Part shown: piece after piece, positions 9,667 to 21,703 of the stretch
Layout of the letters: every line of letters begins with the position of its first letter
How positions within the stretch are numbered: position 1 is the first letter of the stretch
Virus record (IMG/VR): IMGVR_UViG_3300006749_000060
Location: 1-31,704 of that record
Origin: a virus
Strand: one strand, 5' to 3'
Length of the DNA: 31,704 bases
The notes under the pieces: generated by a model
Seen by the model: the letters and a program-made list of their open reading frames with translations, nothing else
What the model was told of the DNA's origin: nothing
Database searches by the model: none
Position numbers and translations under genes: made by a program

Positions 9667-12174
9667 TTACTGTACCATATAAGGTATAAAACCGGCAACG
9701 CCGCGATCTAAGTCCCGTGATCCGCGGTTAGAAATCACCGGACCGCCGTCCTCGTACAATTTGGCACCGGGCCGCGGACCAAGGCGCATTCTGTCCACAA
9801 TGCCTTCATAAAGATCCATACTAGCGCCCGTTAATTGACCACCACGTCTGGCGCGTTCAATAACCGCATCTTTAAAGGCAGAATAAGTATTATCCGATGC
9901 GAGTCGAGCGTCTAACCTTGTTGGCCTAGTTACATCTAAAGCGCCTTCATTAGCAGCCTCTTTGAGTACACTAATCAATTGATCCCGCTCATCGCGGTAC
10001 TGCCGATAAAGTTGATTGTAAGCTTGAGCTTGACGGCCCTTGTTTATTTGACCTGAAAAAGCTCGCTCTCTGTTGGTGTTACTATTGTAAATCTGCATCA
10101 AGACAGGGCGTAGATTAGCTGTGGTTATTTGCGCGACTCTATCCTCAAAAACATCTCTTGGGGCGTGTATTTTGTTCAGCGCATAAGATACATCTGATTT
10201 CATCTGTAAGAACTGCTTTTTTAAATCACCTTCTAAGAAAGCTTTAGGGGAACCCACATCTGGGAAAGGATCCCCTGTAGCCGGAAGCGAATTGCGTCTA
10301 AACACACCGTCACTGTCGATGTATCCAAACAACTCTACAATTGCTTCTGCGTTTGGTGTTTTCAAAAATCTGTCTGTAAGTTTTTTCGGGTCCGCCGGTT
10401 TGTTGCCTAATAAACCTGTTTGGAAAAGCCGCCCCATCCTTGCCATTTCAATTCTAGTCAAAAGACTGCGCTGCTCTTCGTTAAACATTTGGAAAAAATC
10501 TTTTGTTTTCAACTCAATCGGCAATCTTTCATCATTTGGAACTCTAAACTCAAAAAATTCCCCATATTTAGCAGCGGGCCCAGTAAGTGAATTACGTAAA
10601 ATTTCAGTTTGCGTGTCAGCACCTTCTTGACGAACCGCACGTTTGTAAGGGCCGTTCTCTAAAAGATATTGAGTTCTTGAAAACTTGTCCGCCGCGTTGA
10701 GCAAACGCCCGCCAGAGACAGGATAAGTCTCGGTAAGGTCAATGGCCCCGTCATTTTGACTTTGAAACAAGCGTGTCGCAAACTTACCTAGTTGAGTTTC
10801 GATGTATGACAAATTCTTCTGACCAATACCGGCAGGATTTTCTACCGCAAGCGCCATGCTTTTGACGGCTGTGTCTAACTTGGTGTTGGACGGGTCACCA
10901 TCAGCGTCTAAAAATTCTTGCACTACAGCCCTCTCGGCGGCTGTGACGGCGTCTCGTTCAAAATTCAAAGCAGTGACAAGATCCTCTTCTTCTCTGTCTG
11001 TTAGCTCGCGAACGTTCATAGAGTGCGCGGCATCCTCTGCAATATGTATCTCGCTTTCGTTGTATTTTGTATTTGGTTTTTTCAACAAAGGTTTGTCAGG
11101 ATCATACGCCGCCAACAAATATTGAGACGGCGATAGATTTTGCACGTCGTGCATTGTTAGTTCGCGCGGTGCGTAAACAGGATAGCCATCATCATCGATC
11201 ACACCTGTTTTTACAAAAAGCTCTTCTTTCGGCTCGACGGCAACCATTCCCTCTACGCGGTCCGCGGCGCGTTTAGGAGAATCGGACATTGTAAATGTGG
11301 ACAACGACAGCACCGGGTCTGTTCCGATTGAAAAGCCGGGACGATAAATCTCTGCACTCGACGCGCGTTCATCAGACACAATGTTTCTAATTCGGTTACT
11401 TAAACCAAACTCTTTGACCAGATCACCCAGAGTCATGTTTGCACCTGCGGCGGCTCCGATTACATTCGGAGAAATTGTGTAACGCTCAGATGGGGCGACT
11501 TGTACACCGCCTTTGTCATAAAGAGACGCAATTCCGGCGCTACGACCCCCGCCATAAAAGGCTTCTACCAAGCTGTCTGGGACACTTTGCATTCGATCAT
11601 AGAATTTGACGCCATGAGCTAGTCCCTTAATACCGCCCTTACCGCCGCCAAGTGAGCGCACAGTGACGGGTCTGCCGCCTCTTCCGCCGCCCAACATACC
11701 TACCGCAACGCCGTCACCGTCGGCCATTGCCTTGATGCTTCGTGCCGTGCCGTAAGCTATTGGGGATGTACTGGCAATTAACAAGCCCGTAGGATCAAAA
11801 CGGTCATAGGTGTTTGTTTCGGGATCAAAGGTATCCGCAACGCCGGTGGTCGCTACTTCCATACCTTTTTGAATTTCTCCCGCCATGCCCTCAACTGCAC
11901 CGGCGACACCGGTTTTTGCTGATTCTACCGGGTCGTCCATGAAAGCTTTGAAAGCGTCGATGCCCGATGTGATTATTTGCGGGGTAGTAAAACCTTCAAA
12001 CGCATACGTCCCCGGCTTTACCAGAGAGTAACCCCCCATATCGTCGATGGTCACAGATTTCCGGGGCTCTACAACAGAAAACCTTGTCGGCGACAGCAAA
12101 GATAGAAAGCTATATATGCCCCCGCCTGCATCAGCTTCGGGCAATCCTACAATGGTTTCTTCTTTTTCAGCCAT
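9667..12174 (-). CDS. Large virion-operon protein of unknown function
   Basis: An 835-aa protein between TerL and portal. The N-terminal third is Gly/Ala-rich with amphipathic helices (about 75-190, including VGMLGGGRGGRPVTVRSLGGGKGG). The middle and C-terminal parts are charged and helical (about 400-760). The end carries LYEDGGPVISNRGSRDLDRG and VAGFIPYMVQ, a tail pattern I have seen on marine phage structural proteins. Candidates are an internal (ejected) virion protein or a packaging accessory; nothing catalytic is visible. The start overlaps the TerL stop by 8 bp. Confidence 0.72.
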   Translation of the reverse strand: MAEKEETIVGLPEADAGGGIYSFLSLLSPTRFSVVEPRKSVTIDDMGGYSLVKPGTYAFEGFTTPQIITSGIDAFKAFMDDPVESAKTGVAGAVEGMAGEIQKGMEVATTGVADTFDPETNTYDRFDPTGLLIASTSPIAYGTARSIKAMADGDGVAVGMLGGGRGGRPVTVRSLGGGKGGIKGLAHGVKFYDRMQSVPDSLVEAFYGGGRSAGIASLYDKGGVQVAPSERYTISPNVIGAAAGANMTLGDLVKEFGLSNRIRNIVSDERASSAEIYRPGFSIGTDPVLSLSTFTMSDSPKRAADRVEGMVAVEPKEELFVKTGVIDDDGYPVYAPRELTMHDVQNLSPSQYLLAAYDPDKPLLKKPNTKYNESEIHIAEDAAHSMNVRELTDREEEDLVTALNFERDAVTAAERAVVQEFLDADGDPSNTKLDTAVKSMALAVENPAGIGQKNLSYIETQLGKFATRLFQSQNDGAIDLTETYPVSGGRLLNAADKFSRTQYLLENGPYKRAVRQEGADTQTEILRNSLTGPAAKYGEFFEFRVPNDERLPIELKTKDFFQMFNEEQRSLLTRIEMARMGRLFQTGLLGNKPADPKKLTDRFLKTPNAEAIVELFGYIDSDGVFRRNSLPATGDPFPDVGSPKAFLEGDLKKQFLQMKSDVSYALNKIHAPRDVFEDRVAQITTANLRPVLMQIYNSNTNRERAFSGQINKGRQAQAYNQLYRQYRDERDQLISVLKEAANEGALDVTRPTRLDARLASDNTYSAFKDAVIERARRGGQLTGASMDLYEGIVDRMRLGPRPGAKLYEDGGPVISNRGSRDLDRGVAGFIPYMVQ

Positions 12175-13624
12175 AATACGAGCGTACCTGAGTATAGTTG
12201 TCCTCGTCTATGTCCCAATCATCCGTAGGTAACGATACGAAATTACCCTGACGGTATCGCATCAGGGCTTGGGTCATACTATCGACAAGGTCATCATACT
12301 CACCATTGGGGAAAGCCGCAACTTCCTCAATAAGCTCGTCCGCAAATGTCTCATCCGGGGCATACACCATCCCTGCCTCAAACAAAGGAGATACAGAATG
12401 GACACGCGACACCTTATCGTTGCCGCGAGATGGCGTAAAATTCACAACAGGAATGCCCATGTTGCGTAGTTCGTGTGTCAAAGGAGTCCCTGACGCCTTC
12501 GCTTCCACGATTACAGTATCAGGTTCCCAAAACTGATAGCTTTCGTAAGCTTCTGCTTTCAACTCTGGAAAATCCCACCGTCCCTTCTTGCTATCCAGCA
12601 AAATGACCGCCGGGGGCCCCCCAATTTCTTCCGGGCGAAAGACGCCCCACGTCGTTATCGCGCTGTAGTCAGCACTCTCCCTTTTGGAAAACGCCGTGTC
12701 GTAACTCTGAATGACGTATTCAAGATTAGGTACTTCTGTCTTTTCCCACCGCTGCCACCACTCTCGTGGGATAATTGCGTTCTCTTCACCGGTAGGACGC
12801 TGCTGATACTGCGCGTTCCACTTCGACGGCGGGATAGATGCCTTAACTCTTTCAAGATCGTCTTTTGACCAAAACTCCGGCCAACAAGGTTCCTCGTCGT
12901 CCATAATTGCAGGAAGTTCCACAACTTCCCACTGATCCGCTTTCTCATCTTTACCCATTTGACGGATAAGCTGGCCGGTCAGATCCTTTTCCGACCACCG
13001 TGTCATAACCAAAATGATGGCCCCGCCGGGCTGCAGACGCTGTCGGGGGCCCCCTGTGTACCAATCCCAGTCGTTGTCAAACCCCGACGCCGACATAGCA
13101 GTCTGCTCAGAATGAGGATCGTCAATGATAATTAAGTCACCGCCACGACCAGCAAGGTTACTACCGACACCAACCGCGTAGTACATGCCGCCGCGTGATG
13201 TATCCCACCTACCTGACGCCTTTGAATCCGCCGACAGCTTCGCTTCGGGGAAGATTTCAGAGTAGTCCTCTCGCTCCAAAAGGTTCTTAACCTTACGGCC
13301 AAAAGACACTGCAAGCTCTGTGGTGTGCGTTGCCTGAATGATTTTCATCGCCGGGTTCTGCCCAATGAACCATGCGGGCAGAAGATAACTGGCAAACTCA
13401 GACTTTGTGTGACGCGGGGCCATATTGATGATCAAACGCTTCAATTCGCCCTTGGCTACGCGCTCAAACTTCTCTGCAATGATGCGGTGATGCTCTCCTG
13501 CAATGAACTCCGGCCAGACCGATTTCACAAAGCCTAAGAAATCATTCTGACAGTGTTCAATGCGATTTAATTGAGCTAGTCGAAGCTGTAACTTGACTAC
13601 TTTATCTTGGATTTCGTCGCTCAT
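12167..13624 (-). CDS. terL: Terminase large subunit (packaging ATPase-nuclease)
   Basis: A 485-aa protein that drives DNA packaging through the portal. ATPase part: Walker A variant APRHTKSE (69-76), Walker B LIIIDD (164-169) and coupling motif ILVMTRW (204-210). Nuclease part (RNase H-like): SYDTAFS (Asp309), VIVEAKASG (Glu374) and the acidic cluster DDLVDS (about 444-449). All expected catalytic residues are present and the length is normal. It is the first gene of the leftward virion operon. The ATG at 13624 has only a weak SD. The small subunit is encoded far away, at 17357-17932. Confidence 0.95.
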   Translation of the reverse strand: MSDEIQDKVVKLQLRLAQLNRIEHCQNDFLGFVKSVWPEFIAGEHHRIIAEKFERVAKGELKRLIINMAPRHTKSEFASYLLPAWFIGQNPAMKIIQATHTTELAVSFGRKVKNLLEREDYSEIFPEAKLSADSKASGRWDTSRGGMYYAVGVGSNLAGRGGDLIIIDDPHSEQTAMSASGFDNDWDWYTGGPRQRLQPGGAIILVMTRWSEKDLTGQLIRQMGKDEKADQWEVVELPAIMDDEEPCWPEFWSKDDLERVKASIPPSKWNAQYQQRPTGEENAIIPREWWQRWEKTEVPNLEYVIQSYDTAFSKRESADYSAITTWGVFRPEEIGGPPAVILLDSKKGRWDFPELKAEAYESYQFWEPDTVIVEAKASGTPLTHELRNMGIPVVNFTPSRGNDKVSRVHSVSPLFEAGMVYAPDETFADELIEEVAAFPNGEYDDLVDSMTQALMRYRQGNFVSLPTDDWDIDEDNYTQVRSYYG

Positions 13625-13689: not shown

Positions 13690-14121
13690 ACACTATTTAT
13701 CCCATATTGATATCGTTTTTTGCAGTATTGTTTGCGAAAAACATGGACTTTGACGTCGTCTGCCACAGGCGCGGGGCTCGTTTTGAGCGTTTTGTGTGCT
13801 ATGCCCCTGTTTTTATTGCTAAAATTAAGTTTACCGGGGCCCCGTGATCAATCTGGACCGAACAATTTTTAAAACCCGCGGACCGCGGGCCATGCATGGC
13901 CCGGCGCGATTTTCCGGACCGCTGCCGGCGCAATTTGTGCCGCGGATCACGATCCCCAGTCCCCGGATCACGGGCCATGCGCCGGTGTCATAAGTTTAAA
14001 AACATGGGCGGGCGGGGCGCGGGGCAAGTTTGGGGAAAATAGATATTTTGCGGGATTGTTCGCATATGTTGTGCGCGACGGGCTTTCCTGCAGCTGTTTC
14101 ACGTCTAGATGTGGTGCGGGC
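13690..14121. repeat. GC-rich noncoding block with clustered dyads (origin or pac candidate)
   Basis: About 430 bp without a credible gene. Perfect dyads include CGGGGCCCCG (13835-13844), CCCGCGG-A-CCGCGGG (13875-13889) and GGGCCATGCATGGCCC (13887-13902), the last two overlapping. CGGATCACG is repeated at 13943-13951 and 13964-13972; its inverse CCGTGATC is at 13842-13849. GGGCCATGC recurs at 13972-13980. Base composition is far more GC-rich than neighbouring genes. The block directly precedes terL, so a packaging recognition site or a replication origin are the leading readings; neither is shown. Confidence 0.5.
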
Positions 14122-17046: not shown

Positions 17047-17463
17047 ACGGAAAAACTGCTCCCAATCAATCGGGGCATCTATTTTAAAATGCGGTTTTAA
17101 AAGAAGCCCGCGGTCAACAAGCTCAACCGCCTGATCCGCACGATAAACGTGGGCGTGTCGATCCTTGCAGCGCACAATGATAAACGACGCGGTATGCTTG
17201 TGCTGCTCCATCCATGCAACCTGATGAGGCGACAACCGAACAGCAACGCCGGTTGCAGTTTTTAGTTCCCAAAAAGAAAAGTCCCCTGTCTCGCCGCAAA
17301 CGACAAGATCGGGGACGCCTTGGGATGCCCAGCTTTCTATCCGCGTGAGTCGGACGTCAGGACGGTGCTTCTTTTGATTCTTCTTTATACTCTGGTAGAA
17401 GCTCGCTTCCAGATTCTTCGGCGTCTTTTTCGACGGGCGTGATATCGATAACGGAAGATCCAT
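17029..17463 (-). CDS. VRR-NUC-type nuclease (PD-(D/E)xK)
   Basis: A 144-aa protein matching the phage VRR-NUC family of small PD-(D/E)xK endonucleases. An N-terminal helix with Glu19 (NLEASFYQSIKKNQ) is followed by GVPDLVV (Asp52), SFWELKT (Glu66 and Lys68) and SPHQVAWM with the conserved Gln81. These are the expected metal and catalytic positions. Family members include Holliday-junction or flap nucleases, so a role in replication, recombination or resolving DNA before packaging is likely. The first ~35 residues overlap the 3' end of terS by 107 bp in another frame. The conserved helix lies in this overlap, so the overlap seems genuine. Confidence 0.82.
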   Translation of the reverse strand: MDLPLSISRPSKKTPKNLEASFYQSIKKNQKKHRPDVRLTRIESWASQGVPDLVVCGETGDFSFWELKTATGVAVRLSPHQVAWMEQHKHTASFIIVRCKDRHAHVYRADQAVELVDRGLLLKPHFKIDAPIDWEQFFRLTIPL

Positions 17464-17932
17464 ATTGCTTTTTAATCTCTTCTAGTTCCTTCATCACTTC
17501 ATCACGGCTCATGCTATCAATAGACCCGTGCCGCACTTCAGATTTGCTGATGTAGATATCCCCGTGTGCCTGCCCCCGGCGGTACTCGGCTTGAACGGCG
17601 GCAGAGTAAGCCCCGTTGTCCAACGCCTCATCACGTATGCGCTGAAGATCACGGACATGACGATGGTAGGTGATTGCGTACCGTTCGTTCAGTTCGTCCC
17701 GATACATCTTGATTGCCTTGGCGACATTCGGGTGTTTATGAGGGTTCAAAAGTTCAGAAGCTTTGACCGACGCGCTCTTTTCAGAGAAACCAGCGTTTAA
17801 AGCGCATTGCTTCTTACTAATCATACCGTCGTTAGAAACGTATTCCTTAACGAATTTCTTTTGCTTTTCAGAAAGCGGAGAGTCAGGTGTCAGGCGCGGA
17901 CGCCCAACGGGCTTCACTTTTACTATTTCCAT
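17357..17932 (-). CDS. terS: Terminase small subunit
   Basis: A 191-aa protein. Residues about 19-75 match the Terminase_2-type DNA-binding N-terminus: LSEKQKKFVKEYVSNDG, CALNAGFSEKSASVKASELL, HPNVAKAI. A coiled oligomerisation region (about 75-115) and an acidic C-terminal tail for contact with TerL follow. It recognises phage DNA and starts packaging. The ATG at 17932 is chosen because GAGGGG lies 6 nt upstream; a TTG 45 nt further upstream has less support. It lies 3.7 kb from terL but shares an upstream promoter-like element with it. Confidence 0.87.
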   Translation of the reverse strand: MEIVKVKPVGRPRLTPDSPLSEKQKKFVKEYVSNDGMISKKQCALNAGFSEKSASVKASELLNPHKHPNVAKAIKMYRDELNERYAITYHRHVRDLQRIRDEALDNGAYSAAVQAEYRRGQAHGDIYISKSEVRHGSIDSMSRDEVMKELEEIKKQYGSSVIDITPVEKDAEESGSELLPEYKEESKEAPS

Positions 17933-18123
17933 TGCATGCCCCTCATTGAAATCATTCCAAATATAAGGGTAAGCCAACGCTCAATACAAGCTGTTACACC
18001 TCTAATTTCGCGTTACAAGAAAAAGTTACGAGATTTGCCTTCTTTATATAGGGATTTCAACGATGTTACACTTTTCACATTTTTCACAGCACTGTGTGAA
18101 GAAAAAAAATTATTTTTTTTTCT

Positions 18124-18688: not shown

Positions 18689-18876
18689 TCCCAGTACACT
18701 CCCAGTGTTTCGACGCGGATACATACCGCTTCTTCGTTTATGGGCATATCTTCCCAGAAAATTTGGGTAGCTGCGACGTGGCATTCGGCGAGGGTTTCAA
18801 AGACGCCTCGATTTTTAAACTTAAAGTCTTCGATGCCCACCGCCGTTATCCACAGCAGCACCCAGCTAACCGTCAT
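18685..18876 (-). CDS. 63-aa unknown protein
   Basis: A 63-aa protein (start MTVSWVLLWITAVG, end AVCIRVETLGVYWE) with a short hydrophobic N-terminus, possibly a buried strand rather than a membrane helix, and a middle resembling the 50-aa neighbour in style. The start at 18876 is inferred from the 11-bp overlap with the AT-hook gene; the longer frame upstream overlaps that gene heavily. A perfect TTATCCACA (DnaA-box sequence) lies inside it at 18846-18854. Confidence 0.5.
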   Translation of the reverse strand: MTVSWVLLWITAVGIEDFKFKNRGVFETLAECHVAATQIFWEDMPINEEAVCIRVETLGVYWE

Positions 18877-19171
18877 TTTTCTTCGGGCGTCCGCGTTTCT
18901 TGGGCGCGGGCTCGTTTTCTTCTGCCAGCACCCAGTTTCCCCAAAACTGTGGCCGTCCGTCGTCATCGACGCCCGGCGCAAATTTTAAAATTGAATACAG
19001 CTTGTGGACGAGGTCTTCCATTTGCGAAAGATGTGATAGGTTAAGGTCTTTCATCTCTTCCGCATAAGTGACTGCTGCACGTAGTTCGTTATGTCCTCGC
19101 AGCAGTTCCCGGCGGGCGGCTGCGTCGATGGTGAAATCCCCTGTCGTGGGGCTCAAATGACTGTTTGCCAT
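18866..19171 (-). CDS. Unknown protein with C-terminal AT-hook
   Basis: A 101-aa protein. The helical body (about 17-65, with RELLRGHNELRAAVTYAEEM) carries a C-terminal tail PKKRGRPKKNDG. KRGRPKK is a canonical AT-hook that binds the minor groove of AT-rich DNA. It is the first gene of the leftward small-gene operon, preceded by AAAGGAG and a promoter with a perfect 7-bp inverted repeat. A DNA-binding or regulatory role is likely but unproven. A second gene in this genome (24792-25004) has a very similar tail. Confidence 0.68.
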   Translation of the reverse strand: MANSHLSPTTGDFTIDAAARRELLRGHNELRAAVTYAEEMKDLNLSHLSQMEDLVHKLYSILKFAPGVDDDGRPQFWGNWVLAEENEPAPKKRGRPKKNDG

Positions 19172-19198: not shown

Positions 19199-19226
19199 AT
19201 TATGGGAACCGTCCCATACAAGTCAA
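19199..19226 (-). promoter_or_regulatory. Early promoter with perfect TATGGGA operator
   Basis: On the minus strand TTGACT (19226-19221), a 16-bp spacer and CATAAT (19204-19199) give a good sigma70 promoter for the 18.3-19.2 kb operon. Spacer and -10 hold a perfect inverted repeat, TATGGGA (19201-19207) N4 TCCCATA (19212-19218). That is the arrangement expected for a repressor competing with RNA polymerase. Confidence 0.65.
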
Positions 19227-19280
19227 GCAAAAAAGTAGTTAACCAAATTCAAGTTAACCTACATTAGAATCATTCTAAAG

Positions 19281-19296
19281 TGTTTCACGTGAAACA
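19281..19296. other. parS: parS site 1 (perfect ParB-binding palindrome)
   Basis: TGTTTCACGTGAAACA, a perfect 16-bp palindrome identical to the widely conserved chromosomal parS sequence bound by ParB. It lies between the leftward promoter (19199-19226) and the rightward promoter (19355-19383), right beside the TTAGAAT dyad. Confidence 0.8.
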
Positions 19297-19354
19297 TTGA
19301 TTTTACGCCCGCGGGCGCGGAATACTCAGCTGAAGCCTGCGACAATATGTCGCA

Positions 19355-19383
19355 TTGACCGTATGGGAGTTATCCTTTAAGAT
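19355..19383 (+). promoter_or_regulatory. Rightward promoter with GTATGGGA element
   Basis: TTGACC (19355-19360), a 17-bp spacer and TAAGAT (19378-19383). GTATGGGA directly follows the -35 (19361-19368), with a degenerate second arm TCCTTTA. GCGACA-N3-TGTCGC abuts the -35 upstream. The start site would be near 19390. The second parS would therefore lie in the leader, between promoter and first gene. Confidence 0.6.
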
Positions 19384-19427
19384 AGTAGGGTAGCTCGAAA
19401 TAGGGCTATGGGCTTTCGGGCCCGGAA

Positions 19428-19443
19428 TGTTTCACGTGAAACA
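19428..19443. other. parS: parS site 2 (perfect ParB-binding palindrome)
   Basis: A second exact copy of TGTTTCACGTGAAACA. Symmetry extends three bases on each side (19425-19446). The centres of the two copies are 147 bp apart, close to 14 helical turns, so ParB on both would face the same side of the DNA. Confidence 0.8.
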
Positions 19444-19487
19444 TTCGCTATTTGACATCGTTAACCAAACAACCAATGGAGGTCAGT

Positions 19488-19796
19488 ATGTCTGACACCA
19501 ATCCGTCTTTCCTTGCCATCATCTTTATTGGGTGCGGAAGCTCTTGGGCTTACGGCTCATCGGCTGACGAAGCTGCCACCAGTGCAGCGAGCATTCTTGT
19601 TCGTGACTGGAGCAGCTTGTACACCTTCAAGGATGAGGTGCCGGTCAACATCTTCGATGTCGAAGATTACGACGGGTTCCACGCCACCCATCAGGGTGTG
19701 TTCGGAACCAAGGATGATATCCCCGACGACGAAGGGGTAGCGTTGGAGTGCCTTGAAACGAGGCTAGTGCCAACGCCCCCGCAGCCGCGGAGATAA
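19488..19796 (+). CDS. Unknown 102-aa protein
   Basis: A 102-aa acidic protein. The N-terminal FLAIIFIGCGSSWAYGSSADEAATSAASILV reads as a strand-turn-helix unit. This is followed by strand-like segments (VPVNIFDVEDYDG) and a Pro-rich end (LVPTPPQPRR). No family is recognised. The ATG at 19488 is chosen over an upstream in-frame start because GGAGG lies 6 nt before it. It is the first gene after the parS region. Confidence 0.65.
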   Translation: MSDTNPSFLAIIFIGCGSSWAYGSSADEAATSAASILVRDWSSLYTFKDEVPVNIFDVEDYDGFHATHQGVFGTKDDIPDDEGVALECLETRLVPTPPQPRR

Positions 19797-20824: not shown

Positions 20825-21703
20825 ATGCAGATCATCAAAACACAATCTGAAAAAGAAACCGAAGTCAAAAACTTGGAGAAGTTTCTCCGCAAGTCACCAA
20901 CGAACAGTGTGGTGATGGAATTTACCCCGTCCTTGGCAGAACACATTCTGTCTAAGCTTAATATCGGGAATCGTCCTCAAAAGCCGCAGCGTATCGTAGA
21001 TTACGCCAAAGACATGGCCGCACACAACTGGTCATTGACTGGCGAGACAATCTGCTTCGGCGACAACGGGCGTCTTCTGGATGGTCAGAATCGTCTGGCA
21101 GCTTGCATACGGGCCCAAACGCCATTTAAGACGCATGTCATTTTTGGCATTGATCCTGCAACGTTCCACCACATGGACACAGGAAAAAATCGCGGCGGGG
21201 ACGATATCCTCGCAATCATGGGTGTACCGAACTCCGGCAAGGTGGCCGGTGCAATGAAGATGATACGTGCTTGGAAGCGTGGTGTAACGAACACGCAGGG
21301 CACCGTATCGAACCAGATCATTAAGGACATGTACCTTAATGACATTGACGAAGAGCTTATGCAGCGGGCGATTAAGGCAGCTAAGAACGTTTACAGCGTG
21401 ATCAGCTACCCGATTGGTCAGACGGCGGCGCTTTACTACATTGCCAGCCAGAACGACGACGAAGAGCTTGTGGCTAAGTTTTATTCGGAGCTTCGCGTCG
21501 GCGGATCAGGGACCAGCAAGTATCAGCCGTCCCGTCACCTCGTCGAAACATTGACGCGGATGAAGATGAACCGTGAACGGCGGATCACGTCACACGATTA
21601 TAGTGTGATGCTCACGCGGGCTTGGTACAATTTCAAGCACAAGAAGCGGAGCAAGAAGGCCGACATGGAAGTGTACCTCGACGACAAGCTGATGGAAATC
21701 TAG
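20825..21703 (+). CDS. ParB/sulfiredoxin-fold phage protein
   Basis: A 292-aa protein. Residues about 45-120 match the ParB/Srx-like domain found in many phages: RPQKPQRIVDYAKDMAAHNW, TGETICFGDNGRLLDGQNRL (with DGQNR at 86-90 in the place of the ParB GERR box) and MDTGKNRGGDD. The rest is helical and basic (about 140-290). It lacks a visible ENxQR motif and a clear ParB helix-turn-helix, so it is unlikely to be a classical CTP-dependent ParB. Relatives are annotated as ParB-like nucleases or modification-linked proteins. A link to the parS sites 1.4 kb upstream is possible but unproven. Confidence 0.75.
   Translation: MQIIKTQSEKETEVKNLEKFLRKSPTNSVVMEFTPSLAEHILSKLNIGNRPQKPQRIVDYAKDMAAHNWSLTGETICFGDNGRLLDGQNRLAACIRAQTPFKTHVIFGIDPATFHHMDTGKNRGGDDILAIMGVPNSGKVAGAMKMIRAWKRGVTNTQGTVSNQIIKDMYLNDIDEELMQRAIKAAKNVYSVISYPIGQTAALYYIASQNDDEELVAKFYSELRVGGSGTSKYQPSRHLVETLTRMKMNRERRITSHDYSVMLTRAWYNFKHKKRSKKADMEVYLDDKLMEI

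Follow-up and report, generated by a model that had tools for sequence, protein, structure and literature searches.

Probable chromosomal-type parS sites on an apparently lytic podovirus in which no partition system was found

Among the DNA-recognition systems of bacteria, the ParB-parS pair is one of the most conserved. ParB is a sliding, CTP-dependent clamp that contacts ParA and brings about the loading of SMC, and within parS the base that varies is the one at position 5. Jalal et al. (2020) report a preference for parS in all 17 ParB proteins that they examined, and the lack of both ParB and parS in E. coli (PMC7383237). SGI1 is a mobile element that hijacks the parABS system of IncC plasmids through parS copies only (PMC10954446). 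A ParABS of their own is encoded by phage-plasmids and by extrachromosomal prophages, for example mycobacterial ones (PMC7157519). No report of host or chromosomal-type parS on lytic phages was found in the open literature, a coverage short of preprints and most subscription journals, which is weak evidence that such sites are novel.

The window analyzed here is a single IMG/VR record of 31.7 kb (31,704 nucleotides, taken whole), which has no end repeats and a GC content of 50%. A 44-kb contig (G003) contains all of it at 99.9% identity. Its terminase large subunit (TerL) is 53–61% identical to those of pelagiphages HTVC027P and HTVC023P, phage 023Pt_psg01 and Phage DSL-LC04, and the phage, a marine virus of bacteria, is placed as an apparently lytic podovirus in the wider HTVC023P/HTVC027P/DSL-LC04-like group. 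An assignment of the host by way of MAG contigs was rejected, as the best TerL matches fall in mutually contradictory bins (Verrucomicrobiota, Rhodobacteraceae and Maricaulis) and several phage contigs sit in one bin. A 316-bp divergent control region, which separates a minus-strand operon running through the terminase small subunit (TerS) from a plus-strand operon, houses two copies of the 16-mer TGTTTCACGTGAAACA, both intergenic. The features of the region and its neighbors are as follows.

12167–13624, minus strand: terminase large subunit TerL; the TerL leader is the commonest place of parS in related phages
17357–17947, minus strand: terminase small subunit TerS (Terminase_2, PF03592, E=4e-9), in the same operon direction
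18866–19171, minus strand: gene 1 of the minus-strand operon, without clear family
19199–19226, minus strand: sigma-70-like promoter TTGACT-16-CATAAT of the TerS-containing operon, by consensus match only (10/12)
19201–19218, no strand: operator-like palindrome TATGGGA-N4-TCCCATA, overlapping the minus-strand promoter
19261–19281, no strand: near-perfect inverted repeat ACATTAGAAT/ATTCTAAAGT, adjoining a parS site
19281–19296, no strand: putative parS matching the consensus TGTTTCACGTGAAACA in full, some 55 bp upstream of the minus-strand promoter
19338–19354, no strand: second palindrome, TGCGACA-N3-TGTCGCA, with a parS site on either side
19355–19383, plus strand: sigma-70-like promoter TTGACC-17-TAAGAT toward the gene at 19488, by consensus match only (9/12)
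19425–19446 (core 19428–19443), no strand: putative parS within the perfect 22-bp palindrome GAATGTTTCACGTGAAACATTC, in the leader of the plus-strand gene at 19488
19488–19796, plus strand: first gene past the parS leader, without known family
20825–21703, plus strand: phrog_5931 protein of 292 aa, no classical ParB, with a weak resemblance of its predicted N-terminal domain to the ParB-N/sulfiredoxin fold

Chromosomal parS sites have the form of a 16-bp palindrome, either TGTTTCACGTGAAACA or a variant that ParB tolerates, and the window contains this palindrome. A sequence-only reading had reported two exact copies, which were verified 147 bp apart at the positions above. It had also placed them beyond chance, and the counts agree: with up to 3 mismatches allowed, the window has 3 matches compared to 0.17 expected, and 0 shuffles reached 3. 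The half-match TGTTTCACGT that it listed at 14095–14104 does exist but is not conserved, since the aligned sequence in relative L133 is ACACCAAACA and L130 gives no alignment; the half-site was therefore treated as chance and rejected as a parS remnant. The two full palindromes are very probably genuine loading sites for host chromosomal ParB, judging from their sequence and from the comparisons that follow.

The consensus 16-mer recurs among phages. In IMG/VR it occurs in at least 120 stretches versus 1 for a control with reversed letters, and among deposited GenBank phages it occurs in 315 records versus 0 for the reversed letters (this search used an 18-mer with N padding and matches down to 16 bases). 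All of these counts are of records and not of independent events, and many records come from a few related groups. A single change at position 5 is found in 164 deposited phage records and a change at the neighboring position 4 in 1; IMG/VR has the same trend, with at least 120 versus 18. The double C variant is present in 108 deposited phage records. Pseudomonas phages are prominent among the C variants, and Gram-positive and actinobacterial phages are prominent for the T form. Counted across phages, the tolerance is that expected of ParB, in which position 5 is free and its neighbor is not.

Placement provides a further line of evidence. Among the matches listed, 67 of 145 distinct IMG/VR consensus sites are intergenic, versus a non-coding share of 9.7% of the DNA (p ~1e-29, with crude ORF calls and sites treated as independent). 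The corresponding figures are 38 of 133 for the position-5 set, again among the matches listed, and 4 of 16 for the small position-4 set. Cultured phages with parS in gene gaps include DSS3P8, Woes, vB_BcoS-136, Lpa804 and Arian; DSS3P8, which infects Ruegeria pomeroyi DSS-3, has three sites, and Woes, which infects Gordonia terrae, has two. In the Pseudomonas phage phiPsa300 (MT670418) and the Stenotrophomonas phage Salva (MW393850), parS variants lie inside the direct terminal repeats, at the end of the virion DNA.

These figures bear on whether the sites could be a product of chance or of coding, as the 16-mer can encode FHVK and hence arise in genes. About half of the listed IMG/VR sites do fall in called ORFs, and HTVC027P has a one-mismatch site within a gene reading FHVKH, which was for that reason rejected as a homologue and taken as a coding coincidence. 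However, both window sites are intergenic, intergenic sites are in excess, and control patterns gave only 0–1 matches; these low counts refute the explanation in the main, and almost no weight is left to it. A good part of the sites in deposited phages also lie within genes, where their repetition may reflect kinship rather than function. In Microbacterium phages, for example NC_048020 at 42157, parS is found within an annotated DNA-binding (helix-turn-helix) gene in many relatives, a recurrence that may be due to shared descent. Some genomes carry many sites. The ~6-kb genomes of bajarodino viruses 3 and 7 (PQ006097 and PQ006148) have a striking density of 12 and 10 parS places, which correspond to ~6 and ~5 sites because the palindrome is counted on both strands, and one stretch of a 117-kb viral contig (L086, 3300037518_000322) has 11 copies of the variant TGTTCCACGTGAAACA.

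The palindrome could instead resemble parS by coincidence and serve as an operator for some unrelated regulator of the phage. The control region does contain three more palindromes in operator style (19201–19218, 19261–19281 and 19338–19354). Against this, the same 16-mer is found in phages of unrelated families and hosts together with the ParB tolerance pattern, and an HTH_3 regulator above the curated cut-off is absent from six related records, which leaves the operator explanation improbable. The TGCGACA-N3-TGTCGCA palindrome is common to the window and its distant relative L038, and in each it lies between parS sites.

Both sites are also present in IMG/VR contigs 3300025101_000049 (44 kb) and 3300037584_004668, and they are therefore real features of a population and not assembly noise. 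Absence from close relatives had been proposed as a check on the parS reading, and its outcome differs between the two sites. Four relatives whose TerS is 97–98% identical (L130, L133, L138 and L140) have the site at 19428 and the whole 22-bp palindrome unchanged, and a block of ~130 bp around it is nearly invariant in them. The site at 19281, on the other hand, is missing at its place in 86–95% identical relatives and is specific to the window's population. Further away, L038/G002 (TerL 75% identical) has three parS sites. Two of them, 156 bp apart, flank the TGCGACA/TGTCGCA palindrome, and the other lies 149 bp upstream of TerL.

Wider loci were collected by TerL, blind to parS content. Among loci with a TerL identity of 74% or more and an upstream stretch of 200 bp or longer, 7 of 20 TerL leaders contain an exact parS, 41–153 bp ahead of the TerL start. 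An exact site is also present in L172 and L065, whose upstream DNA is shorter than 200 bp, and the L175 leader has a position-5 variant. The exact site is found in 1 of 51 leaders at 60–74% TerL identity and in 0 of 52 below 60% (0 of 47 in the 50–60% band). As many relatives are without it, parS is an optional element. On a TerL tree the trait changes state 7 times, an approximate count from a quick tree method; by this comparison of sequences, parS is repeatedly gained or lost in the window's TerL clade. The placement of the exact site varies between TerL subclades. In L166, where TerS intervenes, parS has stayed on the leader and is now 1.05 kb away from TerL, and it follows from these placements that in this clade the site goes with the leaders of terminase transcription units. 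In L292 and L096 a T-type and a C-type parS (TGTTTCACGTGAAACA and TGTTCCACGTGGAACA) adjoin, which makes most sense if the reader of these sites treats both alike, as ParB does.

Two other observations were made on TerL leaders. Most leaders of the clade (for example L163, L165 and L294) have, upstream of parS, a conserved motif resembling GGGCCATGTTTCTCACAAATAAT. The motif is also found in leaders without parS and is possibly a promoter or a packaging signal. In another phage family, with TerL just 29% identical to that of the window, five exact clustered parS sites lie upstream of TerL (L043, 10535–11462; L016, 2657–3444).

The sequence-only reading saw no ParA or classical ParB in the window, and profile searches bear this out, also for longer relatives. 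Among the window's relatives ParB_N (PF02195) was found in 0 of 8 records and parB_part (TIGR00180) in 0 of 6. The ParA profile AAA_31 (PF13614) was found in 0 of 6 related records and in 14 of 14 control genomes, and phage integrase (PF00589) in 0 of 6 related records. These searches included contigs of 65 kb and 60 kb, not proven complete, and their controls were positive in most or all genomes. A complete ParABS, which needs both parA and parB, is accordingly not found in the records searched, nor is the integrase of a temperate phage or phage-plasmid, a marker that speaks to integration-type lysogeny only. Given that no ParA, ParB or integrase was found in the relatives, these podoviruses, apparently lytic, would carry a centromere with no partition system to go with it.

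Candidates for a phage ParB beside the sites were rejected. Profiles were negative, and a scan of 120 listed IMG/VR loci for a GERR-type motif gave spurious matches only. The ORF at 20825–21703 was likewise rejected as a ParB, as it has no Pfam family and its Foldseek matches are non-significant. ParB-N and sulfiredoxin are among the top of these non-significant hits for its AlphaFold model (16-sequence alignment, pLDDT 81), and one remote relative is annotated as a "ParB-like nuclease domain protein". The model thus weakly suggests a ParB-N/sulfiredoxin lead and not a ParB. This phrog_5931 ORF follows the parS leader at a distance of ~1.4 kb, and its relatives are found in Mycobacterium, Rhizobium, Vibrio and Nocardia phages.

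The claim that chromosomal-type parS is carried by a phage without ParA and ParB is strongly supported by enrichment, position-specific tolerance, intergenic placement, and conservation or re-gain in relatives. From this we infer host ParB binding, clamp loading and a purpose. After phage DNA enters the cell, host ParB-CTP would load at the phage parS, and the loaded clamp would slide over the adjoining phage DNA. Host ParB on the phage DNA would then bring host ParA and SMC. The benefit would most likely be that phage genomes are positioned, held or compacted by the centromere machinery of the host. If ParB does bind, positioning or segregation has a little under an even chance of being the purpose.

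Alternatively, host ParB at parS could form a roadblock to transcription of the terminase and early operons or set its timing, with segregation irrelevant in a lytic infection. The sites are in operon leaders, at 19.2–19.5 kb before the TerS operon in the window and 40–155 bp upstream of TerL in many relatives, and parS follows the leader when gene order changes, as in L166. However, the order of site and promoter varies, with the site either upstream or between promoter and start codon, and in unrelated phages parS has quite other genes as neighbors or lies within terminal repeats. Regulation of the terminase or early operons is the strongest alternative, though a tentative one, as the purpose of bound ParB. 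Because the sites lie in the leaders of TerS or TerL units, a side effect on transcription of the packaging operon, or a second use there, is likely. Replicated phage genomes might also titrate ParB as decoys and so disturb host segregation or division. A high phage copy number would titrate ParB regardless of purpose, and extra parS copies of SGI1 destabilize the IncC plasmid (PMC10954446). The genomes here have just one to three sites, however, and their anatomy gives decoys no preference over recruitment; as the purpose of binding, titration is unlikely, and some other purpose is unlikelier still.

Recruitment of host ParB may extend well beyond the window. The data suggest that phages commonly recruit the host partition protein to their own DNA. 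It is somewhat probable that centromere mimicry is a general strategy of phages. Many unrelated phages that lack partition genes, virulent ones and even microviruses among them, would then have chromosomal parS matched to the host, by which their genomes are positioned or organized in the infected cell by host ParB-CTP, ParA and SMC. Repeated acquisition of exact parS by virulent phages, if it occurs, would make ParB, and by way of ParB also SMC and ParA, either a host factor or a host target of infection. The question is open to testing at once, since both parS-bearing cultured phages and hosts in which parB can be deleted exist.

Compared to known systems, the window has a related TerL (53–61% identity) and similar replication genes to HTVC023P/HTVC027P-type podoviruses and Phage DSL-LC04, but exact parS is absent from the 30-kb stretches read in those phages, and the pelagiphages among them have a GC content of 34–36% versus 50% in the window. 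It resembles chromosomal ParABS/parS of the Spo0J-ParB type in the 16-bp consensus and in having several copies close together, and the position-5 variants tolerated there are likewise seen in phage parS. Unlike the chromosomal system, the sites here are on a phage, without parA or parB, and no demonstrated replication origin adjoins them. Phage-plasmids with ParABS also have parS on phage DNA, but they encode ParA and ParB and are temperate, while the window's relatives searched have no ParA, ParB or integrase. As far as tested, the window element is not a ParABS system, a par-bearing phage-plasmid or an integrating prophage. The nearest precedent is SGI1, which exploits a plasmid system, while here chromosomal-type parS is found on apparently lytic phages. 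Like SGI1, the window phage has parS copies and no parAB of its own and would exploit a partition system encoded elsewhere; by analogy with SGI1 and IncC it would work as a hijacker of host partition through parS.
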